Positions 1,784 to 51,794 of a DNA stretch of 64,000 nucleotides are shown piece after piece (the stretch's first letter is position 1; the number at the start of each line of letters is the position of its first letter). The notes beneath the pieces are model-generated. The model was not told where the DNA came from. It was given only the letters and a program-made list of their open reading frames with translations, and did no database searches. The DNA lies in the NCBI GenBank assembly GCA_902789245.1, contig CADAND010000003.1, positions 86,168 through 150,167 on the forward strand, given 5' to 3'. Made by a program: the position numbers and the translations under genes. This DNA comes from an uncultured Bacteroidia bacterium. Lineage in GTDB: Bacteria; Bacteroidota; Bacteroidia; Bacteroidales; UBA932.

Positions 1784-2212
1784 ATGAGTGAGAATACCAA
1801 CTCCGCTATCATTTCCGAAGGAATGACCGTCACCAGAGGTTCCATTACCAACAAGAATGGACTGACCATTTTCGGCAAGGTCCTTCGGGGAAGCGTCACC
1901 TCCCTGTCCGAGGTGGTAATCGAGGAGAACGGCGTCCTGGAGGGCAAACTGCTCGCCAGGTCTTTTGATGTCAAGGGCAAGTTCTCCGGCACTGCCATCG
2001 TCCGTGGGACGGTCACCCTGCGCAAAGGTTGCTTCGTCAAGGGAGCCATCGACTGCGGTTCCATCATCATCGAGGAGGGTGCGGTCATTTCCGATTCCAC
2101 ACACACCCTTGGCGAGAAGTTGATTCTCGACAAGCTCAGGGCCGACAAGGCCTATTGCGAACTGGAGAAGACCGGAAGCCGGGTCTCCGAGCCCTCGGTT
2201 TCCAAGCAATAA
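1784..2212 (+). CDS. Bactofilin (polymer-forming cytoskeletal protein)
   Basis: Bactofilins polymerise without nucleotide into filaments at the inner face of the membrane and organise envelope processes. The 142-residue product has the usual layout: a short disordered N-terminus with TSEGMTV-like tail, a central right-handed beta-helix domain (about residues 20-110) with the repeating G-x-V/I pattern seen in IFGKVLRGSVTSLSEVVIEE and KGKFSGTAIVRGTVT, and a polar C-terminal tail. It has its own promoter and is followed by an independent outer-membrane protein gene. Its role here (shape, cell-wall hydrolase placement) is inferred from the family. Confidence 0.88.
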   Translation: MSENTNSAIISEGMTVTRGSITNKNGLTIFGKVLRGSVTSLSEVVIEENGVLEGKLLARSFDVKGKFSGTAIVRGTVTLRKGCFVKGAIDCGSIIIEEGAVISDSTHTLGEKLILDKLRADKAYCELEKTGSRVSEPSVSKQ

Positions 2213-2333
2213 TCTCGACAATCATTAAACAGAGTATTCAAAGGTACCGACGGGCTTGAAAGCTGGCCGGTATTCTTTGTGTATGATTGTTTGCTAATTT
2301 GTTAAGATATGGGAAAATCGAAAAGATTATTCC

Positions 2334-2341
2334 TAAATTTG
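2334..2341 (+). promoter_or_regulatory. -7 element directly in front of the porin start
   Basis: TAAATTTG ends 7 nt before the ATG at 2349, leaving almost no room for a 5' leader. No good TTTG lies at the expected upstream distance. Confidence 0.5.
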
Positions 2342-2348
2342 CACAGTT

Positions 2349-3398
2349 ATGCACCTAAAACTAACCCAACCACTATTCTTGATCCTATTGTTTTTTCCGG
2401 GGGTCCTTTCCGCACAGCAGTCTGTGAAGGAATGGTTTTCGCATCCGGCCCTGTCGGCCGCCGCGATGATCTCCGAGAAATACACGCCGCAGGACGGCTC
2501 GTTCAAAACTTCCACGATTACCATGTTGCGGGCTTGCTTTGGCACCGAGAAGGACCCGTTCAAAGTCACGTTGATTTTTGATATCCCCACGACCCGTTTC
2601 CTGACGCTGGAGGCGCATTGGCAGCCGCTTCCGCAGATCGGTGTCCGTGTCGGTCTGCAGAAGATGCTGTTCATGACGGAGACCACGTACGCGCCATACA
2701 TGCTCGGCATGGTCGGTTTTTCCCAGGCGGCGTCTTATCTGGGCGGTTATTCCAACGACATAACGGGGATCAGCTCGCGCAGCCGCGATGTCGGCATCGT
2801 GCTGCAGGGTTCCTTTTTCCCGACAGGGCATGGCGTTCCGCGCCTGAGCTATGCCTTCGGCGTGTTCAACGGCAACGGCAACAACCTCATCGACAACAAC
2901 AGAGCCAAGGATATTCATGGCCGTCTGATTTTCTCGCCCGTGAAGGGCCTGCGGATTTCGGCGGGCTTCATGTCGGGATATTATTCGCCGGTGGGGGAGC
3001 GTCGGCCGGACAGCCATCACCATACCGACGAGGACCTGGCTTGCCGTCACCGCATCACCGGCGGCGTCTGGTACGAGAGCCAGAAATGGTTCTTCCGGAG
3101 CGAGAATGTCTATGGCGTGACGGACGGTCTGCGCAGCGACGGCGTGATGGCCATGGCGGGCTGGATTTTCAAGCCCAGGCTGCAGCTGGCCGCGCGCGTG
3201 GACCACTTCCAGCGCAACCTGTCAGACCCGCTCAGCGGCAGCACCAAGGCGGATCTCTGCTTCACGCACCGCCTGACGGACGACGGCACTATTTTCTACT
3301 CGATCCAGTACGGCCACACCTTCTACTCGGATCCGAACGTCAAGGGCCTTGACGCCATCATCCTCTGCCTGAGCATCGCGTTCCTTCGCACGCTTTAG
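2349..3398 (+). CDS. Outer-membrane beta-barrel, porin O/P-like
   Basis: A 349-residue secreted protein with a signal peptide (MHLKLTQPLFLILLFFPGVLSAQ, cleavage after LSA) and alternating amphipathic strands with aromatic girdles such as GVWYESQKWFFRSENVYGV and an aromatic-rich last third. The pattern, short periplasmic turns and motifs like SPVKGLRISAGFMSGYY resemble phosphate-selective porin O/P family barrels. No substrate can be inferred. It lies alone between its own -7 element and a strong terminator, so it is probably monocistronic and its mRNA nearly leaderless. Confidence 0.7.
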   Translation: MHLKLTQPLFLILLFFPGVLSAQQSVKEWFSHPALSAAAMISEKYTPQDGSFKTSTITMLRACFGTEKDPFKVTLIFDIPTTRFLTLEAHWQPLPQIGVRVGLQKMLFMTETTYAPYMLGMVGFSQAASYLGGYSNDITGISSRSRDVGIVLQGSFFPTGHGVPRLSYAFGVFNGNGNNLIDNNRAKDIHGRLIFSPVKGLRISAGFMSGYYSPVGERRPDSHHHTDEDLACRHRITGGVWYESQKWFFRSENVYGVTDGLRSDGVMAMAGWIFKPRLQLAARVDHFQRNLSDPLSGSTKADLCFTHRLTDDGTIFYSIQYGHTFYSDPNVKGLDAIILCLSIAFLRTL

Positions 3399-3422
3399 CC
3401 GGCTGCATTCCAAGATTGTTAC

Positions 3423-3461
3423 CGTACCGCCGGGCCTGGAGCCTGGCGGTACGTTTTTTTT
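3423..3461 (+). terminator. Intrinsic terminator of the porin gene
   Basis: A 13-bp stem (3423-3435 with 3441-3453, one G-T wobble) and loop CTGGA are followed by eight T. The next promoter's TATCTTTG (3464-3471) begins 3 nt after the T tract. Confidence 0.92.
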
Positions 3462-3463
3462 GC

Positions 3464-3471
3464 TATCTTTG
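3464..3471 (+). promoter_or_regulatory. -7 element of the cdaA-mutS2-yraN-manC operon
   Basis: TATCTTTG matches TAnnTTTG; the predicted leader to the cdaA ATG is about 25 nt. The upstream -33 region falls inside the terminator stem. Confidence 0.6.
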
Positions 3472-3502
3472 TGAGTGTGCTTGCACCTTAACCCGATAGG
3501 CA

Positions 3503-4288
3503 ATGCTGGATTTTTTGAATTTCTCCTGGATAGATATCCTTGACATCCTGATGGTCGCCCTGATCATCTTCCTGATTTTCAGGTGGATCCGCGGGTCGAC
3601 CGCCATCAATATCTTCATTGCCATCATCATCGTGCTGCTCGTCCGCGTGGTCGCGGAGGCCGTTGGCATGAAGATGATCTCCTCCCTGCTCGGCACCGTC
3701 ATCGACATGGGCGCCGTGGCGCTGGTCGTGATCTTCCAGCCGGAGATCCGCCGCTTCCTGAGTTCGCTGGGCCGCAAGGCCGAGACGACGCTCCAGCAGC
3801 CGGGTTTCCTGCAGTGGCTCTTCCCCTCCTGGCAGAGCGGCCAGGTGGACGTGAAGGCCCTGCGCGAAATCACGGAGGCCGTCCGCGAGATGGCGGCGCA
3901 GAAGGAAGGCGCGCTCATCCTCATCCTCCACAAGAACTCGCTGGACGACATCGTCGCCACCGGCGACGTGGTGGACGCCGAGATCAGCCGCCGCCTGATC
4001 ATGAACATCTTCTTTAAGAATTCCCCCCTGCACGACGGCGCGATGGTCATCGCGAACAACCGCATCGCCGCGGCCCGGTGCACCCTTCCGATCACGGAGC
4101 GCACCGACCTGCCGGCCCGCTACGGCATGCGCCACAAGGCCGCCCTCGGCATTTCCGAGCAGTGCGACGCCGATGTGATCGTCGTCAGCGAGGAAACGGG
4201 AGGCATCTCGCTCGTCCGCGGCGGGCAGATTACGCCCATCGAATCCATCAATGCCCTGAACCTGCTGCTCGGAGAGAAGACGGAATGA
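3503..4288 (+). CDS. cdaA: Diadenylate cyclase (c-di-AMP synthase)
   Basis: Condenses two ATP into the second messenger cyclic di-AMP at the membrane, controlling osmotic and cell-wall balance. The 261-residue protein has three N-terminal membrane helices (about residues 11-30, 34-54, 62-78) and a DisA_N catalytic domain with the DGA motif at 178-180 and an RHK version of the RHR motif at 210-212. This is the CdaA (YbbP) architecture and length. Its TGA overlaps the ATG of mutS2 by 3 bases, so the two are translationally coupled. Start chosen at the only ATG giving a full first helix. Confidence 0.93.
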   Translation: MLDFLNFSWIDILDILMVALIIFLIFRWIRGSTAINIFIAIIIVLLVRVVAEAVGMKMISSLLGTVIDMGAVALVVIFQPEIRRFLSSLGRKAETTLQQPGFLQWLFPSWQSGQVDVKALREITEAVREMAAQKEGALILILHKNSLDDIVATGDVVDAEISRRLIMNIFFKNSPLHDGAMVIANNRIAAARCTLPITERTDLPARYGMRHKAALGISEQCDADVIVVSEETGGISLVRGGQITPIESINALNLLLGEKTE

Positions 4289-6750
4289 CCCACACCCGAC
4301 TGGAAAGCAAACTCGGTTTCGACAAGATCCGCAAGATGATTGCCGACCGCTGCCTGACGGATTACGCCGCCGGGCGCGTGGCCGAGGAGAGCTTTTCCAC
4401 GGACCCGGACATCATCCGGCAGCGGCTCGCGCTGACCGACGAGATGCGCCTGGTGCTGATGTTCGAGGAGAACTTCCCGACCACGGGCTACATCGACGCC
4501 ATTCCCTTCCTGTCGGCCCTGGAGCGTGACGGCTCCTGTATCGATGTGCTCTCCCTGGGCAAGCTCAAGACCGTGACCGACACGATCCGTCGCGTCCTGC
4601 ACTTCTTCGGCAGCATCAAGAGCGGGATCTACCCGCAGCTCGAGCGGCTGGCCTCGCCGGTCCGCTCCTTCCCCGAGGTGCAGCGGCGCATCGAATCCAT
4701 CCTCGACAAATACGGCGACATTAAGGACTCCGCCTCCGATCATCTCTTCGAGATCCGTCGCGACCTCCGCAACAAAGAGGCCGCCATCTCCAAGCGGGCC
4801 GGAGCCATCCTGCGCCAGGCGCAGGAGGAGGGGGTCGTGGACGCCGACGCGGACGTGACCATCCGCGACGGGAAATACCTTATCCCGGTGGGCACTTCCG
4901 CCAAGCGCAAGCTGCCCGGCTTCGTGCACGACGTGTCCGCCTCCGGCAAGACCGCCTTCATCGAGCCCGCCGAGATCATCGAGCTGGAGAACGACATCGC
5001 GGAGCTCCACTTCGAGGAGGAGCGCGAGATCCGCAAGATCCTGCTTGAGTTCACCGACTTCCTGCGTCCCTATCTGCCCGACCTTTTGGGCGGTGCCGCC
5101 TTCATCGGCGAGCTGGACTTCCTGATGGCCAAGGCGCAGACGGCGCTCGACTTCGTGGCCGGCATGCCTGTCGTCTCGGACGATGGCAGCCTGTCGCTGC
5201 GCAAGGCGCGCCACCCGCTGTTGGAGAAGGCGCTCGCGCGCGAAGGGCGCAGCATCGTGCCGCTCACCGTCACGCTGAGCCCGCAGAAGCGCATCCTGCT
5301 GATTTCCGGCCCCAACGCCGGCGGCAAGTCCGTCTGCCTGAAGACGGTCGGACTGCTCCAGTATATGTTCCAGTGGGGCATGCTCATCCCCACATCCGAG
5401 AGCTCCGAGCTTCCGGTCTTCGACCGCATTGCCGTGAGCATCGGCGACGACCAGAACCTCGAGGACGACTTGAGTACCTACAGTTCCTTCCTCGCGGACA
5501 TGCGCGATATGCTCGCCGACGCTGACGAGCACACGCTCGTGCTCATCGACGAATTCGGCTCCGGCACGGAGCCTGCGGCCGGCGGCGCCATTGCCGAGGC
5601 GATCCTCGCCGAGCTCGACCGTCGCGGCGTGCGGGGAGTGATCACCACGCATTACACCAACCTCAAGCTTTACGCCGCGGGCGCCGACACGCACGTGGTC
5701 AACGGCGCCATGCTCTACGACGCCGCAAAGATCGCCCCGATGTTCCAGCTGGAGATCGGCCTGCCCGGCAACTCCTTCGCTTTCGAGCTCGCGCGCAAGA
5801 TGCGCCTCCCGGAGAGCATCGTCAAGGACGCGGAGACGCGCGCCGGCGAGGAGTTCGTCGGCATCGAGCGCAACCTCCGCAAGATCGCCCGCAACCGCCG
5901 GGCGCTGGACGAGAAGCTCCAGAAGATCAAGCATACCGACAAGGCCCTCGAGGGCATCACCGAGCGCTATGAGAAGGAGCTCGAGGACATCCGCCAGCAG
6001 AAGAAGGCCATCCTCGACGAGGCCCGGCAGGAAGCCGAGCAGATCGTCCGGGGCGCCGGCAAGCAGGTCGAGAAGACCATCCGCGACATCAAGGAGGCCC
6101 AGGCCGAGAAGGAGCAGACCAAGGCCGCGCGCCAGGAGCTCCAGGGCTTCCTGGGTGCGCTCCAGGAGCGCAAATCCAACGAAAAGAAAAAGCGGGACGA
6201 GTACATCGACCGCAAGCTCGAGCAGCTCAAGAAGCGCAAGAAGGGCGGCCCGGCCGCCGCGGCGCCCGAGCCTGCCCGCAGCGAGTCGCTCAAGGTGGGC
6301 GAGAAGGTCCGCATCAAGGACAACGGCCTCGTGGGAGAGGTCGCCAAGATCAGCAGCAAGTCCGTGACCGTGATCGTCGGCAACATCACGAGTACCATGG
6401 TTCCCACGCGTGTGGAACGCATATCCTCGAACGAATTCCGCGAAGCGTCCCGCAAGGCCTTCGCCCCCGTGCAGCAGCGGGTGGACAGCGCCATCACCGA
6501 GCGCAAGCTCTCCTTCAAGCCGGAGCTGGACGTCCGCGGCGAGCGCCTCGCCGACGCCCTTGACATCGTCACCCATTTCATCGACGACGCCGTCATGCTC
6601 GGCGTCGGCTCCGTGCGCATCATCCACGGCAAAGGAACCGGCGTGCTGCGCGAAGAGATCCAGAAATACCTCCGGACCATCCCCGGGCTGTCCGTCAGCG
6701 ACGAAGACGTGCGGACGGGCGGCACTGGCGTAACCGTCGTCAAGCTATGA
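4285..6750 (+). CDS. mutS2: Endonuclease MutS2
   Basis: MutS2 is a MutS-like ATPase with a C-terminal Smr nuclease domain, acting in suppression of homologous recombination and, in some bacteria, in rescue of collided ribosomes. The 821-residue product has the MutS core and ABC ATPase with Walker A GPNAGGKS (342-349), Walker B LVLIDEFGSGTEP, a long coiled coil (about 520-640), a KOW-like segment and the Smr domain with LDVRGER (about 748) and HGKGTGVL (about 781). The ATG at 4285 overlaps the cdaA stop; its TGA overlaps yraN. The open frame upstream of 4285 only reads through cdaA. Confidence 0.94.
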   Translation: MTHTRLESKLGFDKIRKMIADRCLTDYAAGRVAEESFSTDPDIIRQRLALTDEMRLVLMFEENFPTTGYIDAIPFLSALERDGSCIDVLSLGKLKTVTDTIRRVLHFFGSIKSGIYPQLERLASPVRSFPEVQRRIESILDKYGDIKDSASDHLFEIRRDLRNKEAAISKRAGAILRQAQEEGVVDADADVTIRDGKYLIPVGTSAKRKLPGFVHDVSASGKTAFIEPAEIIELENDIAELHFEEEREIRKILLEFTDFLRPYLPDLLGGAAFIGELDFLMAKAQTALDFVAGMPVVSDDGSLSLRKARHPLLEKALAREGRSIVPLTVTLSPQKRILLISGPNAGGKSVCLKTVGLLQYMFQWGMLIPTSESSELPVFDRIAVSIGDDQNLEDDLSTYSSFLADMRDMLADADEHTLVLIDEFGSGTEPAAGGAIAEAILAELDRRGVRGVITTHYTNLKLYAAGADTHVVNGAMLYDAAKIAPMFQLEIGLPGNSFAFELARKMRLPESIVKDAETRAGEEFVGIERNLRKIARNRRALDEKLQKIKHTDKALEGITERYEKELEDIRQQKKAILDEARQEAEQIVRGAGKQVEKTIRDIKEAQAEKEQTKAARQELQGFLGALQERKSNEKKKRDEYIDRKLEQLKKRKKGGPAAAAPEPARSESLKVGEKVRIKDNGLVGEVAKISSKSVTVIVGNITSTMVPTRVERISSNEFREASRKAFAPVQQRVDSAITERKLSFKPELDVRGERLADALDIVTHFIDDAVMLGVGSVRIIHGKGTGVLREEIQKYLRTIPGLSVSDEDVRTGGTGVTVVKL

Positions 6751-42061: not shown

Positions 42062-43808
42062 CCGCGGTCTTCTCCCGCAGCCAGTCGGCGATCTCGCTGG
42101 GAAGGTGCGGGGAGAGGGTGCGGTAGACGCGCTCCTGGTAGGCGTTGAGCCAGTCGATTTCGCTGCAGTCCAGCAGCGAGAGGTCCAGCCCGTCGGTCTC
42201 GAAGTGGCAGAGGGTCAGCGTCTCGAAAGCGAGCCAGCGGCCGAATTCGTTCTGCCCGGCAGGCACGACCAGCATCAGGCTCTCATGGCGCACGCCGTGC
42301 TTCCCTTCCCGGTAGATGCCGGGCTCGTCGGAGAGGATCATTCCCGGTTCCAGGGCCGTGGGGTTGAGGTCCTGCCGCAGGTCGACCGGGCCTTCGTGTA
42401 CGCCGAGGAACCAGCCGACGCCGTGGCCCGTGCCGTGACCGAAATTGCGTTTGCTGTGCCAGAGCGGCATGCGGGCGATGGCATCCAGACGGCAACAGGG
42501 GGTCCCTTCCGGGAAAACGGCCATCGCCAGGTCGATGTGGCCTTTCAGCACCAGCGTGTAGTCTTCCCGCTCCAGGGCGCTGATCCGCCCGAAGGGGATG
42601 GTGCGGGTGATGTCCGTCGTGCCGTTGTCGTATTGCCCGCCGCTGTCGCAGAGGTAGAGTCCGCCTTCGCGGATCACGGGAGCGTGGGTGTGCGGGGTGA
42701 TATAATGCGGCAGGGCGGCGCCGGGGCCGAAGGCGGAGATGGTCTCGAAGCTGTCGCCGTGGTAGCCCGGGATGTCGGCGCGCAGCTGGCCCAGCTTGAC
42801 GGCGGCGTCCCACTCCGTGACCTCGCGCCCGGCGTCCACCGAGCGCTCCAGCCAGTACAGGTAGCGCTCCATCGCGAGCCCGTCCTGCAGGTGCGCCTCG
42901 CGCATCCCGGCAATCTCGGTGGCATTCTTGACGGCCTTGCGCAGGCCTACGGGGCTTTTGCCGACCTCGAGAGGTACCTTGGCGGCAGTCAGGCCCGTAT
43001 AGAGCTGGTAGTTGAGGGTGGCGGCGTCCACGAAGAGCCGCCCCTGGAACTCGGAGGAGAGAAAGTCGATGTCGGCGTAGGGCAGGGTGCGCACCCCGTC
43101 GGCTTCCAGGATGCTGAACGTGGCCGTGGAGTCGGGGTCCTCGACCGTATCCTTGAGCACGTACCAGGCAACATCCTCCTGCGTGACGAGCAGGTAGCTG
43201 ATCACGAACGGGTTGTAGTCGATGTCGGAGGCGCGGACGTTGAGCAGCCAGGCGATTTCGTCCAGCGCCGTCAGCAGGATCCCGTCGCAGTCGCGCTCCC
43301 GCAGGAAGCCGCGGATCCAGTCCAGCTTCTCGCGGCGGCTCTCGCCGGGGTTCGCCGTGAAGACGGGCGTCTGCGGGATGGCGGGCCGGTCCGTCCAGAA
43401 GGGGCTCAGCAGGTCCGGGACGCTGATCACGGTCCCGGGCAGCGACTGCGCGAAATCGGCGCCCACGCACAGCCCGTCCACGGCAATGAGTCCCTCGCCG
43501 CCGAACTGGCGCTCCAGCCACTCGGGGATCAGGACCTGCTCTGGGACGCGCGTCTTGTGGAGCACGATGCCCGTCCCGGCGAGTTGCTGCTCCGCCTGGA
43601 TGAAGTAGCGCGTGTCGGTCCAGAGGCCGGCGTGGTCCAGGGTGACCACCAGGTCGCCCGCCTCGCCGGTGAAGCCGGAGAGCCACTCCACCTGCTTCCA
43701 GCGCTCGGCTGGGTATTCGCTGCAATGGGGATCCGAGCCGGTTACGACCACCGCGTCCCAGCCTCGGGCGCGCATCAGGGTGCGCAGGGTTTCGATTCTG
43801 TCTGCCAT
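42054..43808 (-). CDS. Xaa-Pro aminopeptidase (M24 family)
   Basis: Cytoplasmic 584-residue metallopeptidase that removes the first residue before proline. Two creatinase-like N-terminal domains (about 1-300) are followed by the M24 catalytic domain with metal ligands in LCDSGGQYDNGTTDITRT (two Asp), GHGTGHGVGWFLGVHEGP (His), SDEPGIYREGKHGVRHE (Glu) and the C-terminal family domain with FETLTLCHFE. ATG 43808 gives MADRIETLRTLM; the longer upstream frame crosses a REP-like palindrome and is not coding. Confidence 0.9.
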   Translation of the reverse strand: MADRIETLRTLMRARGWDAVVVTGSDPHCSEYPAERWKQVEWLSGFTGEAGDLVVTLDHAGLWTDTRYFIQAEQQLAGTGIVLHKTRVPEQVLIPEWLERQFGGEGLIAVDGLCVGADFAQSLPGTVISVPDLLSPFWTDRPAIPQTPVFTANPGESRREKLDWIRGFLRERDCDGILLTALDEIAWLLNVRASDIDYNPFVISYLLVTQEDVAWYVLKDTVEDPDSTATFSILEADGVRTLPYADIDFLSSEFQGRLFVDAATLNYQLYTGLTAAKVPLEVGKSPVGLRKAVKNATEIAGMREAHLQDGLAMERYLYWLERSVDAGREVTEWDAAVKLGQLRADIPGYHGDSFETISAFGPGAALPHYITPHTHAPVIREGGLYLCDSGGQYDNGTTDITRTIPFGRISALEREDYTLVLKGHIDLAMAVFPEGTPCCRLDAIARMPLWHSKRNFGHGTGHGVGWFLGVHEGPVDLRQDLNPTALEPGMILSDEPGIYREGKHGVRHESLMLVVPAGQNEFGRWLAFETLTLCHFETDGLDLSLLDCSEIDWLNAYQERVYRTLSPHLPSEIADWLREKTAAI

Positions 43809-43817
43809 ATATTTTTG

Positions 43818-43843
43818 TTCGCCGGCTCCGACCGGCGAATCTC
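43818..43843. repeat. REP-like palindrome TTCGCCGG..CCGGCGAATCTC
   Basis: A GC-rich stem of the same type as 8242-8272, 9 nt upstream of the peptidase start. Confidence 0.6.
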
Positions 43844-44202: not shown

Positions 44203-44361
44203 TTATACCGGAAAAGTGCAGCGCTTCTTGACTTCCTCGTAGACACGCATGATTTCCTCGACCTCTTCCTGAGGTAGAGGTTTGACATTGTGTGCCGCCA
44301 TCTCGAAGCGGTATGCATCCTCGTCGTAGAGAATAGGGGTTTCTTTAATTGGCTTTGCCAT
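44203..44361 (-). CDS. Small charged protein (52 residues), divergent from the methyltransferase genes
   Basis: The frame reads MAKPIKETPILYDEDAYRFE at the start and ends in EEVKKRCTFPV, with a Glu-rich middle helix. Peptides that begin this way are common in Bacteroidota and often sit beside toxin-like genes, but no partner is present downstream. A -7 element TACATTTG (minus, 44425-44432) and a small leader hairpin CTGCAT/ATGCAG precede it, which supports expression. I do not assign a function; an antitoxin-like role is only a guess. Confidence 0.6.
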   Translation of the reverse strand: MAKPIKETPILYDEDAYRFEMAAHNVKPLPQEEVEEIMRVYEEVKKRCTFPV

Positions 44362-44424
44362 AATCGTGTTTTTTTAAAGTTTATAAGTTTAGCTGGATCT
44401 GCATAATAGATGCAGGTCTCTGTG

Positions 44425-44453
44425 CAAATGTAAGCCTTTTTCGGGAAATCAAA
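44425..44453 (-). promoter_or_regulatory. Promoter of the 52-residue gene
   Basis: On the minus strand TTTG (44450-44453) and TACATTTG (44425-44432), 17 bp apart. The leader of about 60 nt contains CTGCAT/ATGCAG (44399-44415). Confidence 0.55.
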
Positions 44454-44463
44454 AACTTTTTCG

Positions 44464-44471
44464 TAGATTTG
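44464..44471 (+). promoter_or_regulatory. Possible promoter of the methyltransferase-helicase operon
   Basis: TAGATTTG on the plus strand, back to back with the minus promoter. If used, it leaves a leader of about 255 nt that contains two hairpins and a U-rich terminator. Confidence 0.4.
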
Positions 44472-44548
44472 CTTCTGCAATAACACCAACAGGGTATTAT
44501 AGACATATTTTTTAGATAGCACAAGCTATTTATTCGGTCGTCTCGAAA

Positions 44549-44640
44549 CCTAGGAAATTTCAAAACGTACCACCGGATAAGTCAGTGAGTGCCTGCGCTT
44601 TGGCGTGGGTGTGACTTATTCAGGTACCGGCCTTCCTAGG
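44549..44640 (+). promoter_or_regulatory. Nested stem-loop leader upstream of the methyltransferase operon
   Basis: Three nested stems: CCTAGGAA (44549-44556) with TTCCTAGG (44633-44640), GTACC (44567-44571) with GGTAC (44623-44627), and ATAAGTCA (44577-44584) with TGACTTAT (44612-44619), topped by CCTGCGC-TTTG-GCGTGGG. GAATAAGTCA recurs at 44701-44710 and could pair with 44612-44621 instead. It resembles the sensing half of an attenuator. Confidence 0.5.
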
Positions 44641-44684
44641 GGCAAGAGACGTGAATGGGAATCATTCACGCCTTTCTTTTTGCC
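44641..44684 (+). terminator. Terminator-like hairpin in the leader
   Basis: CGTGAATG (44650-44657) and CATTCACG (44663-44670) form a perfect 8-bp stem followed by CCTTTCTTTTT; GGCAA (44641-44645) can also pair with TTGCC (44680-44684). It lies 50 nt before the first start codon. Confidence 0.65.
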
Positions 44685-44733
44685 TCCAGGAGGTCTCGTC
44701 GAATAAGTCAGCCTGTGCGCATGAAAGCGCAGA

Positions 44734-45375
44734 ATGGACACCCAAATCAAGTCCAAGGAAAGGGTGGCCGCTCACGGGGAGGTATTTACCAATCCCCGGG
44801 AGGTGAATGCCATGCTGGACCTTGTGAAGGCGGAGACGGAGCGTATAGACTCCCGTTTCCTGGAGCCAGCATGTGGCGACGGAAACTTCCTCATAGAGAT
44901 TCTACGGCGCAAACTCGCCATCTGCGAGGCCCGCGTCAAAGCAAAGCAATATACTCAGCTCCAATACGAACACGATGCCATCTGGGCCATCTCCAGTATC
45001 TACGGTATCGAACTCTTGGCCGATAATGCCGCAGCCTGTCGGGAGCGTCTTCTGAACTACTTCACGGAGCAATACCAGAGCCTCTTTAAATCAAAATGCA
45101 AGGACAACTGCATCGAAGCGGCCCGGTACATCCTTTCCAAGAATATCATCCACGGCGATGCCCTCACTTACAAGCGTGTGGACAAGCCTGACGAGTGGAT
45201 TCATATCAGTGAATGGAGCTTTATCGGGGCTGATAAGGTCAACCGCCGGGACTACGAATTCTCCTATCTCGTTGGTGAATACGAAAGCGACGGGCTTTTC
45301 TCCGACCTCCCCGCCGAGACCTATGCGCCTGTCCATTTCCTCAAGATAAATGCTGCTGCTTATGGTGAACAGTAA
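44734..45375 (+). CDS. Methyltransferase-like protein without catalytic motif IV
   Basis: The 213-residue protein has the front of an N6-adenine methyltransferase: HGEVFTNPREVNAML (motif X-like), FLEPACGDGNFLIEIL (motif I, SAM binding, 43-58), YGIELLADNAAACRERLL (motif II) and NIIHGDAL (motif III-like). The NPPY/DPPY motif needed for adenine methylation is absent and the protein ends where that domain would continue. There is no sign of a frameshift; the next gene starts inside its end with its own motifs X and I. It may be a SAM-binding partner of the next protein. First gene of a three-gene operon. Confidence 0.75.
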   Translation: MDTQIKSKERVAAHGEVFTNPREVNAMLDLVKAETERIDSRFLEPACGDGNFLIEILRRKLAICEARVKAKQYTQLQYEHDAIWAISSIYGIELLADNAAACRERLLNYFTEQYQSLFKSKCKDNCIEAARYILSKNIIHGDALTYKRVDKPDEWIHISEWSFIGADKVNRRDYEFSYLVGEYESDGLFSDLPAETYAPVHFLKINAAAYGEQ

Positions 45376-46936
45376 TTATAATCCGGACGTACTCAACTGC
45401 ATTGCCAACCTGAGCAATGACGAGGTTTTCACCCCGCCGGAACTGGCCAATCGAGTCCTGGACCTGTTGCCGCAGGACCTTTTCAAGAGCCCTGATACCA
45501 AGTTCCTCGATCCATTCTCAAAAAGCGGCGTCTTCCTTAGGGAAATCGTCAAGCGGCTCGATCGTGGTCTGGAATCTCTTTTGCCTGACCGGCAACTCCG
45601 TATCGACCATATCCTGCACAACCAGGTCTTCGGCATCGCTATCACGGAATTGACCTCTTACCTGTCACGGCGCTCCGTTTACTGCAGCAAGCAGGCCAAT
45701 GGGAAATACAGCGTATCCCGTTTCAGTACTGAGAGCGGCAATATTCTCTATGCCAACCGCTCCCACACCTGGGAGAACGGCAAGTGCAAATTCTGCGGCG
45801 CATCCCAGCAGGTGTACGACCGCGGCTCTGAGGCAGAGCAATATGCCTATATGTTCATCCACACAGACAATCCCAAGCAATTCTTTGGAAATATGAAGTT
45901 TGACGTAATCATCGGCAATCCTCCGTATCAACTATCTTTTGGACTCGAAGGTGGAAATAGTGCGAATGCAAAATCCATTTACAATCTATTCATTTCGCAG
46001 GCAATAAAACTATCGCCTAGGTATCTAGTAATGATTACCCCCAGTCGTTGGATGACAAAAACGGCTCAAGGTATTCCGGAAGAGTGGGTCGATAAGATGT
46101 TAAAAAACAAACACTTTAGGATAATGCATGATTATGAGGACGCAACCGAGTGTTTCCCGGGTGTCGAAATAAAAGGAGGGATAAACTACTTCCTCTGGGA
46201 TAACAATTATTCGGGTGTTTGCGAATATTTCTTTCACTCAAAACAAGAAAAACAACCAATCTTTCGAAAAGAATACCTTGATAGCAAAGATGCTGGCGTA
46301 GTTATTCGAAGCCCTAGGGCATATTCCATTATTGATAAAATAGAAAGAATCGAGGGTAAATACTACTCTACGGCAAGCAAAAACTTTTCTGGCCTGGTTA
46401 GTCCAAAGCATTTCTTTGACGATAGTGATTTGCTAACATCAAATTGGCATGGCTACAAAGATAATCAAAGCGACGAGTATTCAATCAAGTACTACCTAAA
46501 CTTGAATCGAGAGCGAACATACAAATGGATTTCTATAAATCAACTTCCAAAGAACAAAGCGACAAAAGACCTTCATAAAGTCTTTATTCCGGCCGCTGGT
46601 GGTAGTGGAAATGATGATATTATTTTGGGAAAGCCGTTTTATGGAGAACCGAATAGCGTGTGTTCTCAAACATTTCTGGTCATCGGATATGATCCCAACT
46701 CGAACCACTTTGATAGAGAATCCTGTGAGAATATCATCTCTTATATTCGAACTAGGTTTTTCCGATATCTTGTTTCAATAAAGAAGAAAACCCAAAATGG
46801 TCCCAGAGGAGTATATCAGTTTGTTCCTATTCAGGATTTCTCACTTCCTTGGACTGATGACATGCTATACAAGAAGTACAATTTGACCGAAGATGAAATC
46901 GCGTTCATTGAATCAATGATTCGTCCAATGGAATAG
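45362..46936 (+). CDS. Eco57I-type adenine-specific DNA methyltransferase
   Basis: A 524-residue N6-adenine methyltransferase. Motif X is EVFTPPELANRVL (21-33), motif I is FLDPFSKSG (48-56) and the catalytic motif IV is NPPY at 186-189 in FDVIIGNPPYQ. Between them lies a possible metal knuckle KCKFC (141-145). The rest, from about residue 195, is probably the target recognition part. That part is much richer in AT than the first 190 codons and the neighbouring genes. ATG 45362 overlaps the previous gene by 14 nt; ATG 45350 is in frame but adds only MLLL. The next gene starts 3 nt after the stop. Confidence 0.88.
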   Translation: MVNSNYNPDVLNCIANLSNDEVFTPPELANRVLDLLPQDLFKSPDTKFLDPFSKSGVFLREIVKRLDRGLESLLPDRQLRIDHILHNQVFGIAITELTSYLSRRSVYCSKQANGKYSVSRFSTESGNILYANRSHTWENGKCKFCGASQQVYDRGSEAEQYAYMFIHTDNPKQFFGNMKFDVIIGNPPYQLSFGLEGGNSANAKSIYNLFISQAIKLSPRYLVMITPSRWMTKTAQGIPEEWVDKMLKNKHFRIMHDYEDATECFPGVEIKGGINYFLWDNNYSGVCEYFFHSKQEKQPIFRKEYLDSKDAGVVIRSPRAYSIIDKIERIEGKYYSTASKNFSGLVSPKHFFDDSDLLTSNWHGYKDNQSDEYSIKYYLNLNRERTYKWISINQLPKNKATKDLHKVFIPAAGGSGNDDIILGKPFYGEPNSVCSQTFLVIGYDPNSNHFDRESCENIISYIRTRFFRYLVSIKKKTQNGPRGVYQFVPIQDFSLPWTDDMLYKKYNLTEDEIAFIESMIRPME

Positions 46937-46939
46937 CCT

Positions 46940-49669
46940 ATGGCAGCACAAGACCTCCTCCGAAACAGAGTATCAGAGACTCCGATGATATATGCCTACA
47001 AGCACGTAGGGGTACCGGCTCACGAACGGATGCTCAAAGTCGGTTACACAACACGTGAAGTAGAATCACGAGTTCGGGAGCAAAATCTCACGAACCATAT
47101 TCCTTACGAAATCGTCTTGAAACGCCCGGCAATGCGCAAGGACGGTTCCTCGTTTACTGACAAGCTGGTCCATCGTATCCTCAGAAAGAATCACATCCAG
47201 AATCCTGAAGGAGAATGGTTCGTCTGTGATGTCAAGACCGTTGAGAAGGCAATTGCATCAGCAGTGGAGGGCAAGGATACCATAGTTGACCGTATCTACG
47301 ATTTTCCGATGCGTCCGGAGCAGGAACGTGCTGTAGCAAAGACATCGGCCTACTTAGAGGCTTTCAAAAAAGACCCCGCCAACCGTGGCCTCACGCCGCA
47401 CTTCCTATGGAATGCCAAGATGCGCTTCGGCAAGACCTTCACTACCTACCAGCTTGCTCTCAAGATGGGATGGAAGAAGGTGCTGGTCCTTACCTTCAAA
47501 CCGGCCGTAAAGACTGCCTGGGAAGAAGACCTCCTCACGCACAAGGACTTCGAAGGCTGGCAATTCTGTCAGAAGCAGGAAGACAGAGAATTCAACTATG
47601 TAAACGAGCGCAAGCCCTTTGTCTGTTTCGCCTCCTTCCAGGATGTGTTGGGAAAGAATGACGCGGGTGGTATCAAGGCCACCAACAAATGGATTCAGAC
47701 TGTAAATTGGGACTGCATCGTACTGGATGAGTACCACTACGGAGCTTGGGGCAAGAACGCCAAGAACTTCTACGACAAGAAGGACCCTGCTCTGAAACGG
47801 GCAGAGGAAGTAGGAGAGATTATCACCGAGGACGCCGATAATGCCCGCGAATTGGAAGCCCGAGAAATGTATGATGAAGGCTTGATGCCGCTTCGTACCG
47901 GTGCCTACCTATATCTGTCCGGGACACCGTTCCGCGCCATTTCCACCGGTGAGTTCATCGAGGAACAAATATACAACTGGACTTACTCCGACGAGCAGGC
48001 GGCCAAGGAAGCATGGCAAGGGCCGAAGAACCCTTACGCACAGCTTCCCAAGATGGTGATGCTCACATACCAGTTGCCGGACAGCATCCGTGAGATTGCT
48101 GCCCAGGGAGAGTTTGACGAATTCGACCTGAATGAGTTCTTCCGCGCAGAGGGTGACTATTTCCTGCACGAGGAGTATGTCCAGAAATGGCTTGACTTAA
48201 TCCGTGGCGCCTACACGGAGAATATCGTTACGGAGCTCAAATTGGGCACAGAGAAACCGCCGATGCCGTTCTCTGATGCCCGTCTGCTCAGTTACCTGCA
48301 GCACACCTACTGGTTCCTCCCCAGCGTCGCAGCATGTAGGGCGATGGCTAAACTCTTGAAGAAACGTTCCAATCGGTTTTATGCCGATTATGAAGTCATA
48401 GTAGCAGCCGGCAACGAAGCAGGTATGGGTGCGAAGGCGGTAGATCCCGTCTATAATGCGATGGGCGAACCGCAGCAGACCAAGACCATCACCCTTTCCT
48501 GCGGCAAACTCTCTACAGGCGTTACCGTGAAGCCTTGGACCGGCATTATGATGCTTCGAAATACCACTTCGCCGGAAACCTATTTCCAGGCTGCCTTCCG
48601 CGTCCAGTCCCCTTGGACCACAAAGGACGAATCTGGCGAAGAAGTCATCCTCAAGCCGCTTTGCTATGTCTTCGACTTTGCGCCGAATAGGGCGTTGCGC
48701 CAGGTCGAGGAATACAGTTGCCAACTCAACGTTCATGAGTCCAATCCAGAAAAGAAGGTGGAGCAGTTCATCAAGTTCCTGCCCATTCTGGCCTTCGACG
48801 GTTCTTCCATGAAGGAGATTGACGCTGCTGGTGTGCTCGATATGGCGATGAGCGGCACCACCGCCACGCTCCTTGCCCGTCGCTGGGAGAGCGCCGTGCT
48901 GGTCAACGTGGATAATGCCACCCTCCAGCGCCTGATGAGTAACCCCGATGCAATGAAGGCCCTGATGAACATCGAGGGCTTCCGCAATCTCAATTCCGAC
49001 ATTGAAACCATCATCAACAAGTCCGAGCACGTCAAGAATACCAAGAAGGAGAAAGGTGATGACCTTACGCCTAAACAGAAAAAACAGCTCACGGAGGAGG
49101 AAAAGGAATACAAAAGCAAGCGTAAAGAGATCCAGGAGAAACTCATCAAGTTCGCCACCAGAATACCGGTCTTTATGTACCTAACGGATTACCGAGAATA
49201 CTGCCTTAAGGATGTTATCGAACAACTTGAACCCGAACTCTTCCGTAAGGTCACAGGCCTCACCCTCAAGGATTTCAGCCTGCTGGTCAGTCTGGGCGTC
49301 TTCAATAGCGAATTGATGAATGACGCTGTCTACAAGTTCAAGCGCTACGAGGATTCTTCCTTGGAGTACACCGGTATTGACAAACATACTGGCACTGTCA
49401 TCGGACTCTGGGATACCGCTATTGACACTTCCGTCATTGCCGGCCCCGACCGGCAATCACCTGTTGTAAATGAGATGGCCGATCAGGTCGGGCATGACGA
49501 AAGGGAACTTTGGGAACGTCTGCTGGTTGGCGATACCGTCATCCACAAGAGCCTTGGCCCTGGCGAGGTCATGGCCCTGGACGATAAATACCTCATCGTC
49601 AAATTCTCGGATCGAGAATCCAAGTTCCTCTATCCGGCTGCTTTCGAGAAAGGATATTTGACGGTCTAA
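46940..49669 (+). CDS. GIY-YIG/T5orf172 nuclease - superfamily 2 helicase fusion
   Basis: A 909-residue protein. Residues 15-105 resemble the T5orf172/GIY-YIG nuclease fold (MIYAYKHVGV, MLKVGYTTREVESRVREQ, then LVHRILRKN and GEWFVCD). From about 125 follows an SF2 helicase: Q-like MRPEQERAV, motif I as KMRFGKT (160-166), motif II DEYH (263-266), motif III LSGTP (326-330), and motifs V-VI with CGKLSTGVTV and FQAAFRVQSPW (about 517-556). A charged coiled coil near 700-735 and a terminal small beta domain (DTVIHKSLGPGEVMALDD) end it. It is the likely restriction and translocation subunit of the locus. Confidence 0.82.
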   Translation: MAAQDLLRNRVSETPMIYAYKHVGVPAHERMLKVGYTTREVESRVREQNLTNHIPYEIVLKRPAMRKDGSSFTDKLVHRILRKNHIQNPEGEWFVCDVKTVEKAIASAVEGKDTIVDRIYDFPMRPEQERAVAKTSAYLEAFKKDPANRGLTPHFLWNAKMRFGKTFTTYQLALKMGWKKVLVLTFKPAVKTAWEEDLLTHKDFEGWQFCQKQEDREFNYVNERKPFVCFASFQDVLGKNDAGGIKATNKWIQTVNWDCIVLDEYHYGAWGKNAKNFYDKKDPALKRAEEVGEIITEDADNARELEAREMYDEGLMPLRTGAYLYLSGTPFRAISTGEFIEEQIYNWTYSDEQAAKEAWQGPKNPYAQLPKMVMLTYQLPDSIREIAAQGEFDEFDLNEFFRAEGDYFLHEEYVQKWLDLIRGAYTENIVTELKLGTEKPPMPFSDARLLSYLQHTYWFLPSVAACRAMAKLLKKRSNRFYADYEVIVAAGNEAGMGAKAVDPVYNAMGEPQQTKTITLSCGKLSTGVTVKPWTGIMMLRNTTSPETYFQAAFRVQSPWTTKDESGEEVILKPLCYVFDFAPNRALRQVEEYSCQLNVHESNPEKKVEQFIKFLPILAFDGSSMKEIDAAGVLDMAMSGTTATLLARRWESAVLVNVDNATLQRLMSNPDAMKALMNIEGFRNLNSDIETIINKSEHVKNTKKEKGDDLTPKQKKQLTEEEKEYKSKRKEIQEKLIKFATRIPVFMYLTDYREYCLKDVIEQLEPELFRKVTGLTLKDFSLLVSLGVFNSELMNDAVYKFKRYEDSSLEYTGIDKHTGTVIGLWDTAIDTSVIAGPDRQSPVVNEMADQVGHDERELWERLLVGDTVIHKSLGPGEVMALDDKYLIVKFSDRESKFLYPAAFEKGYLTV

Positions 49670-49681
49670 GCCCCGTCGCGA

Positions 49682-50806
49682 TTATACTTCCGTAATAAAC
49701 TCCGTAAACATCGTCCGCTCCTCTTCCGTCAGGAACTCCGCGGAGATGGGGATTTTGAACAGGCGCTCCATGAGCGCCTGTGGCATTCCCGTGCAGTCCA
49801 GCAGCCGCTGGGCATCTTTCTCCGTCGTGATGACGGCGGCGGTGCTCTGCTTGTTCGCGGCATCCTGGATGCGCGTGATGTCCTTCCACGCGAAGCGGTG
49901 GTGGTCCGGGAAGCGGAAATGCTCGCAGATCCGGTAGGAGTCGCTCAGGTAGGAGCGAAGCGCCTTGTCCGATGCGATGCCCGTCACGAGGATGGCGGAC
50001 TTGGAATAGGCGTAGCGCGGCTCTGCCGTCGGGAAAACGCCCTCCGCCGGCGCATATTGCACGGTGGTGAAGAAGATCAGCTGGCGGCGTCCCTTCGGGT
50101 TGGTCGCCTCGCAGGCGGACGGCAGGTAGTCCGTGAAGCCCAGGTCGCGGACGAAGGCGGCGCGCTCGGCTGCGTCCAGCTCGGCCGGACACTTGGTCAC
50201 GATGAGCGCATCGGCTTCGTAGATCCGCTCCGGCAGGTCGCGCAGGCGGCCCAGCGGCAGCAGCATGTCCTTCTGGACGGGGCGGTTGTAGTCCACCAGC
50301 ACCACGCTCTTGTGCGTCTTGAGACGGCGGTACTGGAAGGCGTCGTCCAGCACGATATAGTCAGCGGGTTTGAATTCGCGGTTCCAGCAGCGCTTCTCCC
50401 AGCGGCGTCCCTTCAGCTTCTCGGGATGCACCAGCAGGTCGCAGCCCTGCTCGCGCTTCTTGTCCACGGCCACGACCACGTCGGGGAACTTCTTCTTGAT
50501 CTGCATCGGCTCGTCGCCGTACATGACGGCACTTCCCTCGGAGGTCACCTGCTGGAAGCCCTGGCTGTCGCGCTTGTAGCCGCGCGAAAGCACGGCCAGC
50601 TGCTTGTCGCACCAGTCCGGGTGCTGCTGCAGCAGGCGCAGGACCATCTCCACGTGCGGGGTTTTCCCGGTGCCGCCGACAGTCACGTTGCCGATGCAGA
50701 GCGTCGGCACTTCGGCGTAGCTGAACTTGCGCCCGGGGCGGTTCCACCGGCGGTTGCGGGCTTTCAGGACCCAGTAATAAGGGAAGAGAAGGAACTTGTC
50801 AATCAT
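49682..50806 (-). CDS. lpxK: Tetraacyldisaccharide 4'-kinase
   Basis: LpxK phosphorylates the 4' position of the lipid A precursor at the inner membrane. The 374-residue protein has an N-terminal membrane-associated helix, Walker A GNVTVGGTGKTP (39-50), SRGYKRDSQGF, and DYIVLDDAFQYRRLK. It is the last gene of the pyrH-frr-dusB-lpxK run, overlapping dusB by 8 nt. Confidence 0.94.
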   Translation of the reverse strand: MIDKFLLFPYYWVLKARNRRWNRPGRKFSYAEVPTLCIGNVTVGGTGKTPHVEMVLRLLQQHPDWCDKQLAVLSRGYKRDSQGFQQVTSEGSAVMYGDEPMQIKKKFPDVVVAVDKKREQGCDLLVHPEKLKGRRWEKRCWNREFKPADYIVLDDAFQYRRLKTHKSVVLVDYNRPVQKDMLLPLGRLRDLPERIYEADALIVTKCPAELDAAERAAFVRDLGFTDYLPSACEATNPKGRRQLIFFTTVQYAPAEGVFPTAEPRYAYSKSAILVTGIASDKALRSYLSDSYRICEHFRFPDHHRFAWKDITRIQDAANKQSTAAVITTEKDAQRLLDCTGMPQALMERLFKIPISAEFLTEEERTMFTEFITEV

Positions 50807-51794
50807 ATCGCTGTTCTATGGTGTCCAGAATATCGTTCAGCTCGGCCACGTCCAGGGTCGTGACCATGCGCATGCGGGTCTCCTTGAAGTCGGGCAGGCC
50901 CTTGAAGTAGCAGGACAGGTGGCGGCGCATCTCGTAGATGCCGCGCGGCTCGCCCTTGTACTGCAGCGACAGGGCCAGGTGGCGGCGCGCCAGGGCCACT
51001 TTCTCCGCCACCGTCAGGGCGGGCATGGGCTCGCCGTGGTCCAGGTAGTGGCGGATCTCCCGGAAGATCCAGGGATGCCCGAAGGTCGCGCGACCGATCA
51101 TGATGCCGTCCACGCCGTAGCGCTCGAAGGCCTGCTTCGCAGAAGGGCCGTCGGTGATGTCGCCGTTGCCGATGATAGGAATGTGCATGCGGGGGTTGGC
51201 CTTGACGGCGCCGATCAGCGTCCAGTCGGCCTCGCCCTTGTAGAGCTGGCAGCGGGTGCGGCCGTGAATGGTCAGGGCCGCGATGCCCACGTCCTGCAGG
51301 CGCTCCGCGAGCTCGACAATGATTTTGGACTGGTCGTCCCAGCCCAGGCGCGTCTTGACGGTGACGGGTTTGCCGACCGCCTCTACGACGGCCTTGGTGA
51401 TGGCCACCATCTTGTCCGGCTCGCGCATCATGCCGGAACCGGCGCCGCGGCCCGCGATCTTGCTCACGGGGCAGCCGAAGTTGATGTCGACGAGGTCGGC
51501 TCCGTGGCCGCCCGTCAGCTCTGCCGCGCGCTCGGCCATCCGGGCCGCGTCCACCATCGCGTCGGGGTGCTGGCCGTAGATCTGGATGCCCACGGGGGCC
51601 TCCTCCTCGAGCGTGTGCATCTTGGCAATGGTCTTGGGGACGTCGCGGACCAGTCCGTCGGAATTGACGAACTCCGTGTAGACCATGGCGGCACCCTGCT
51701 CACGACAGAGCACGCGGAAGGAGACGTCCGTGACGTCTTCCATCGGCGCGAGCAGCAGCGGACGCTCGCCCAGGTCCAGGGCTCCGATCTTCAT
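50799..51794 (-). CDS. dusB: tRNA-dihydrouridine synthase
   Basis: An FMN enzyme that reduces uridines in the tRNA D loop. The 331-residue protein has a TIM barrel with LLLAPMEDVTD at the FMN site, the catalytic Cys108 in NFGCPVSKI, TVKTRLGWDD and HGRTRCQLYKG, and the C-terminal helical domain. It resembles the DusB group most. It lies 10 nt behind frr. Confidence 0.93.
   Translation of the reverse strand: MKIGALDLGERPLLLAPMEDVTDVSFRVLCREQGAAMVYTEFVNSDGLVRDVPKTIAKMHTLEEEAPVGIQIYGQHPDAMVDAARMAERAAELTGGHGADLVDINFGCPVSKIAGRGAGSGMMREPDKMVAITKAVVEAVGKPVTVKTRLGWDDQSKIIVELAERLQDVGIAALTIHGRTRCQLYKGEADWTLIGAVKANPRMHIPIIGNGDITDGPSAKQAFERYGVDGIMIGRATFGHPWIFREIRHYLDHGEPMPALTVAEKVALARRHLALSLQYKGEPRGIYEMRRHLSCYFKGLPDFKETRMRMVTTLDVAELNDILDTIEQRYD

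Follow-up and report, generated by a model that had tools for sequence, protein, structure and literature searches.

Organization of the locus

The window, the 64,000-nt stretch of DNA from an uncultured Bacteroidia bacterium that we analysed, contains three consecutive genes, M1, M2 and R, the frames of which are all intact, and a divergent small open reading frame (ORF):

44203–44361, − strand: divergent small ORF of 52 aa
44734–45375, + strand: M1, split methyltransferase subunit of 213 aa with motifs X, I, II and III, in which EWS replaces NPPY
45350–46936, + strand: M2, Eco57I-type adenine methyltransferase of 528 aa with NPPY, an altered motif I (DPxxKSG) and a C-terminal target-recognition domain
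46940–49669, + strand: R, fusion of a GIY-YIG (T5orf172) nuclease and an SF2 helicase, 909 aa

An initial annotation, made from the letters alone, had described tightly linked genes for a methyltransferase-like protein without motif IV, an Eco57I-type adenine methyltransferase and a nuclease–helicase fusion of 909 residues, and each of these points was borne out. By ORF coordinates, the last 26 nt of M1 are shared with the start of M2, and M2 and R are separated by 3 nt (in some related loci the M2–R interval holds small and varied ORFs). The search with hidden Markov models that the annotation had proposed recovered the domains that it claimed, with Pfam matches of M1 to MmeI_Mtase (2.9e-6, residues 38–145), of M2 to Eco57I (6.6e-34) and of R to both T5orf172 (9.7e-11) and ResIII (3.9e-5). 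The divergent ORF, which the annotation had counted in the locus, does exist but is unrelated to the system: tblastn (E 0.01) found no homologue in the 85 fetched loci, many of which are cut, and the homologues elsewhere form a separate family, with matches in 8 of 61 genomes of the genus (own genome included) and a second copy on contig C14 of the own genome. It was therefore rejected as a part of the restriction–modification (RM) system.

Relative to the near genome G008 (L118), the RM operon is an insertion. Blocks equivalent to window positions 42067–43808 and 49715–51794 lie only 73 bp apart in G008 (an empty site), the second in inverted orientation compared with the window. An inverted repeat, TTCGCCGGCTCCGACCGGCGAA, is located at 43818–43839; it has 16 copies in the genome at ≤3 mismatches, and the reversed control has 0.

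All three genes are orthologous to those of pDrdVI (Deinococcus wulumuqiensis NEB 479), with 47% (M1), 42% (M2) and 53% (R) identity and an identical gene order. Because of this shared content and order, the locus is, as judged by orthology, a DrdVI-type split RM system—a fresh member of a known, little-studied family. M1-2.DrdVI cloned in Escherichia coli ER2796 yielded 6mA at GCAGCC (PMC6430315), and PMC10113651 describes MaeIV (Methanococcus aeolicus PL15/Hp) as a split M1–M2 m6A methyltransferase and a DrdVI-like 'split methylase/RM'; in both cases, according to these sources, the M1–M2 genes give m6A at a non-palindromic site.

A methyltransferase probably divided between two proteins

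In M1, E44-P45 and glycines G48 and G50 of the cofactor motif (motif I) are invariant in all 57 aligned rows; there is no NPPY, and by eye the expected place of motif IV is occupied by EWS, with W161 kept in 57/57 rows. In M2, NPPYQ is invariant and motif I has the form DPxxKSG, K58 being present in every row (69/69 for both, the window being counted twice, also as L081). M1 is homologous to the N-terminal part of M2 (hhalign, 96%), and this alignment places K58 at the first glycine of motif I, opposite G48 of M1. Three inspected fused forms also have lysine at the K58 position, as KSG or KQG. M1 comes as two flavours, A (as in the window) and B (EITCGEAPY), which are homologous to each other (hhalign probability, 97%); in B, motif I is altered, with GEA where GxG is expected.

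M1 was present in all 73 loci with an intact 5′ side of M2 (type A in 58 and type B in 15; tblastn, ≥60 bits, anywhere in the locus, with 20 cut loci left out), a count in which three same-genome pairs (L083/L094, L084/L093 and L008/L095) appear twice and L021 and L026 are near-identical. Given this regular co-occurrence and the complementary loss of motifs, M1 and M2 probably form an obligate pair in which each protein supplies what the other lacks. A natural M1–M2 fusion was sought and rejected: the 30 matches to type A M1 (E <1e-30) lie in open frames of 83–283 aa.

The target-recognition domain of M2 comprises about residues 286–480, and such domains appear to have been swapped between systems. 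In L001, M1 (99%), residues 1–110 of M2 (96%) and R (92%) are nearly those of the window, yet the recognition domain is 23% identical; in L037, R is just 70% identical, yet the recognition domain is 68% identical; and in a fused enzyme from the same genus (G016, L084), the recognition domain is 51% and the aligned N-terminal part 37% identical. Plasmid relatives of the recognition domain have 27–32% identity among the matches listed (15 of 70), so that no motif is predicted for the window M2.

M1 might instead be a non-catalytic subunit, either HsdS-like in specificity or allosteric in regulation, with M2 binding SAM itself, and we consider this possible though rather doubtful. The predicted model of M2 (mean pLDDT, 86.2) forms a complete methyltransferase fold that resembles BrxX, CamA and M.TaqI, and it is modelled confidently in the region of its own motif I; M1 may thus be unneeded for completing the fold, which counts against a strict division of labour. 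Weak fold matches of M1 (best E 0.0067; none at E ≤0.001) weigh in the same direction, and the altered motif I of type B M1 favours a non-catalytic role. Against such a role, the first glycine of motif I in M2 is occupied by lysine throughout the alignment and in the three fused forms, and motif I of type A M1 is intact in all rows. Moreover, M1 is unlikely to choose the sequence, because its sequence in L001 has diverged far less than that of the recognition domain. Profile searches at E 0.01 found no PDB relative of M2 or R. We treat M1 and M2 as probable partners in one methyltransferase.

The nuclease–helicase and its relatives

The annotation had regarded a GIY-YIG nuclease at the N terminus of a helicase as unusual; among relatives of R it is the rule, with Y18, K33, G35, R44, D74, H78 and E92 each kept in 83–86 of 87 rows. 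The position equivalent to the metal-binding Glu of classical GIY-YIG members is presumably Asp in R. The helicase residues are likewise conserved (Walker K165 in 86, DExH E264 in 87 and R554 in 87 of the 87 rows), and R is predicted from these motifs to cleave DNA with ATP. In pDrdVI, the GIY-YIG residues of R align with those of the window, and T5orf172 was not called by Pfam at E 0.01. Residues of about 863–900 (window 49526–49639) resemble a C-terminal CarD/TRCF-like small domain (E 0.11), which is present in the longer R proteins; many relatives are just about 830–860 aa.

PMC6430315 and PMC10113651, as read, report no activity or cleavage by R for the DrdVI/MaeIV family, as would be expected if the system only methylates or has decayed and lost restriction. 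We find this improbable for the window, in which the three ORFs are intact, given the near-complete retention of nuclease and helicase residues across the R rows.

At least 583 of the 593 stretches that matched the pattern encode an R relative. The 80 best loci were retained, and the record titles include Bacteroidales, other phyla and an archaeon. The distribution is patchy: R relatives occur in 4 of 41 near genomes, 2 of them with the fused form, and in 31 of the 392 genomes from the phylum; both counts include the own genome. R also matched 79 plasmid records (13 covering ≥80% of R) and 9 phage records (2 covering ≥80%), and the M1–M2–R order is found in plasmid and phage records as well; a Legionella example is more distant.

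A pseudoknotted leader RNA

The region between the small ORF and M1 contains the following elements:

44530–44655, + strand: pseudoknotted leader RNA of ~125 nt (covariance model R1; permutation test on per-sequence strands)
44539–44544/44646–44651, + strand: leader helix P0
44545–44548/44558–44561, + strand: leader helix P1
44549–44556/44633–44640, + strand: leader pseudoknot
44567–44571 and 44575–44584/44612–44621 and 44623–44627, + strand: leader helix P2, with an inner hairpin at 44590–44611
44650–44681, + strand: terminator-like element, with a hairpin of 9 pairs (44650–44670) and a U-rich tract (44673–44681)
44656–44733, + strand: remaining leader sequence before M1, with strands able to pair alternatively with the 3′ strands of P0 and P2

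That the leader is structured, as first annotated, was confirmed by folding and by covarying helices. The 174 nt upstream of M1 fold at −76.5 kcal/mol (z −5.93; 0/200 shuffles as good). For the 230 nt upstream of type A M1 (30 shuffles each), z was ≤−3.7 in 31 of 33 Bacteroidales loci, the exceptions being L049 and L035, the latter with its RNA at a greater distance from M1; the other 20 loci tested all had z ≥−2.04. Upstream of type B M1, z was ≤−4.4 in 7 of 8 loci (30 shuffles each). As MAFFT with RNAalifold misaligned the variable helices of 28 leaders, pairing was assessed by a per-sequence comparison of cognate with non-cognate strands; an alignment of 68 matches based on the covariance model contained four weak matches and was unused. 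In 72 distinct RNAs with 2000 permutations, the observed pairings outscored every permutation. Cognate strands scored 7.69 for P0 (4.58 permuted; maximum, 5.11), 7.93 for the pseudoknot (5.26; 5.75) and 8.72 for P2 (6.60; 7.15). Pairing with the downstream segment scored 8.90 for the 3′ strand of P0 (6.31; 7.03), a test that takes in adjacent local hairpins, and 8.58 for the 3′ strand of P2 (7.39; 8.10). The 72 RNAs are related, so these results are not formal probabilities. In the window, 2 nt of the 5′ strand of the terminator-like hairpin also belong to P0; the region has 3 terminator-like sites compared with a mean of 6.6 in shuffles, which makes the element weak evidence alone. Together, the two alternative sets of helices and the U tract suggest an attenuator, and the leader likely acts in this way on operon transcription or translation. 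No Rfam family reached its gathering score and a search of literature records pointed to no earlier description; the leader is apparently an undescribed element.

The model R1, built from 16 RM-operon leaders, found a single match per source in 37 of the 74 sources, every one a Bacteroidales locus; a match was absent from some Bacteroidales loci (for example, L022, L025, L044 and L047), the leaders of which are structured but different. Near genomes yielded 53 matches (29 of 101 genomes), the phylum 25 (18 of 392 genomes, all of the own class) and other classes or phyla one weak match (E 8e-4; 1 of 14 genomes). The own genome has three copies, on contigs C3, C4 (at its end) and C16. Among 40 of the 53 near matches for which downstream genes were fetched, methyltransferase operons follow in 11, a share biased upward because R1 was built from RM leaders. 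These have DrdVI-type M1 of type A (L139, L143 and L150; L139 and L143 come from the same genomes as L007 and L026) or type B (L172), an EcoRI-methylase-like gene (L140, L141, L144, L145, L147 and L149, by sequence likeness; L141 confirmed by Pfam) or an N6_Mtase gene (L161). The L141 operon (2186–4467, on own contig C16) encodes an EcoRI-type methylase and a GmrSD_N–HNH nuclease, and is thus a second methyltransferase system with the same leader. The remaining near matches either lie at contig ends or precede diverse genes, among them genes for lipoprotein-like, MBOAT and PKD proteins, and the downstream genes of 20 further matches are likewise varied. Besides the window, the leader RNA was noted in loci L139–L198. 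An arrangement in tandem integron-like cassettes was considered; the two matches in G042, a genome in one contig, are about 1 Mb from each other. In L159 (G019), a leader match with an insert is followed about 1.2 kb on by a fragment that by eye resembles an M2 recognition domain; this is perhaps a decayed DrdVI-type locus.

A role confined to the restriction machine was rejected for the leader, because many other genes stand behind it and the tested loci of other phyla gave no match. In Bacteroidia it is found ahead of further kinds of methyltransferase operon and of genes unrelated to them, so that it is a cis-element on which the operon draws, outside the restriction machine. We give about even chances to the broader proposal that it represents a new class of pseudoknotted cis-regulatory RNA of Bacteroidia, with alternative pairing of the P0 and P2 3′ strands serving as an attenuator or riboswitch, adopted by unrelated methyltransferase operons (DrdVI-type, EcoRI-methylase with GmrSD–HNH, and N6 methyltransferase). 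If this class holds up, an RNA regulator would be common to restriction systems and other Bacteroidia genes; its adoption would put restriction systems under RNA control, with a bearing on how an RM system can be turned on in a new host without killing it.

Proposed mechanism

We have high confidence in the overall account of a DrdVI-type split RM system with an M1–M2 methyltransferase, R as the cutter and a structured leader. M1 and M2 would together methylate adenine (m6A) in just one strand of a short, non-palindromic site, which the recognition domain of M2 would select, with M1 probably the cofactor-competent SAM half and M2 contributing NPPY catalysis and recognition. We infer that R would join M1–M2, sense an unmodified site, spend ATP through its SF2 motor and cut with the N-terminal GIY-YIG domain. 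Because the mark would be on one strand alone, we expect cleavage to depend on two sites or on translocation, as it does for type III and ISP enzymes. A seemingly odd locus is thereby placed in a known family that is biochemically little studied, and the question of why two half-degenerate methyltransferases stay together—M1 keeping the cofactor motif without NPPY, M2 keeping NPPY with an invariant lysine in the cofactor motif, a new detail—becomes testable.

Comparison with known systems

The system shares with DrdVI three orthologous genes in order, a split M1–M2 and a helicase R with aligned GIY-YIG residues. It differs in the recognition domain, which is 28% identical to that of DrdVI, so that another target is expected, and in its leader, as no leader RNA precedes the pDrdVI operon (z −1.2; no R1 match). 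The likeness to MaeIV, a split M1–M2 m6A methyltransferase, is by published description. Fused GIY-YIG–helicase–methyltransferase enzymes (Pediococcus pRS5, G016 and G030) carry the same R and M2 modules on a single chain (1417 aa for pRS5, with open frames of 1324 and 1341 for the genomes), with a type B M1 gene beside all three copies. The PADLOC model REase_MTase_IIG PDLC03626 (1359 aa) likewise matches R, then M2. MADS (MAD2 methyltransferase) was rejected, as M1 scored 16.6 bits against a curated cut-off of 720 and PADLOC mad2 matches were weak.

The annotation was right that the locus does not fit classical types I, IIG and III, and mistaken in treating it as unassignable, since orthology with pDrdVI puts it in the DrdVI/MaeIV 'split methylase/RM' family. 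There is no separate HsdS in the operon, the variable recognition domain lying within M2; the nuclease is in R and the methyltransferase in M1 and M2, rather than in one polypeptide; and in place of a single Mod with Res, motifs are divided between M1 and M2 and a GIY-YIG domain sits on the helicase. PADLOC matched M1, M2 and R through single-protein models alone (MTase_II or REase_MTase_IIG). The missing HsdS, the unfused nuclease and these single-protein matches could speak for an RM type that is new and belongs to none of the known families, a reading that we find hardly credible: genes, order and domains are as in DrdVI, already described as a split methylase/RM, which largely refutes it, and R relatives are widespread among the candidate stretches. 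Type ISP enzymes (LlaGI and LlaBIII) combine a helicase, a gamma-type methyltransferase and a recognition domain with an Mrr-type nuclease in one polypeptide and modify one strand. The DrdVI-type system of the window shares the helicase, methyltransferase, recognition domain and predicted one-strand modification, and differs in having three ORFs and a GIY-YIG nuclease. DrdVI itself is listed as type IIG (PMC6430315), a label that fits the architecture poorly: the nuclease and the methyltransferase are carried by separate chains, and SF2 motifs are present in R.
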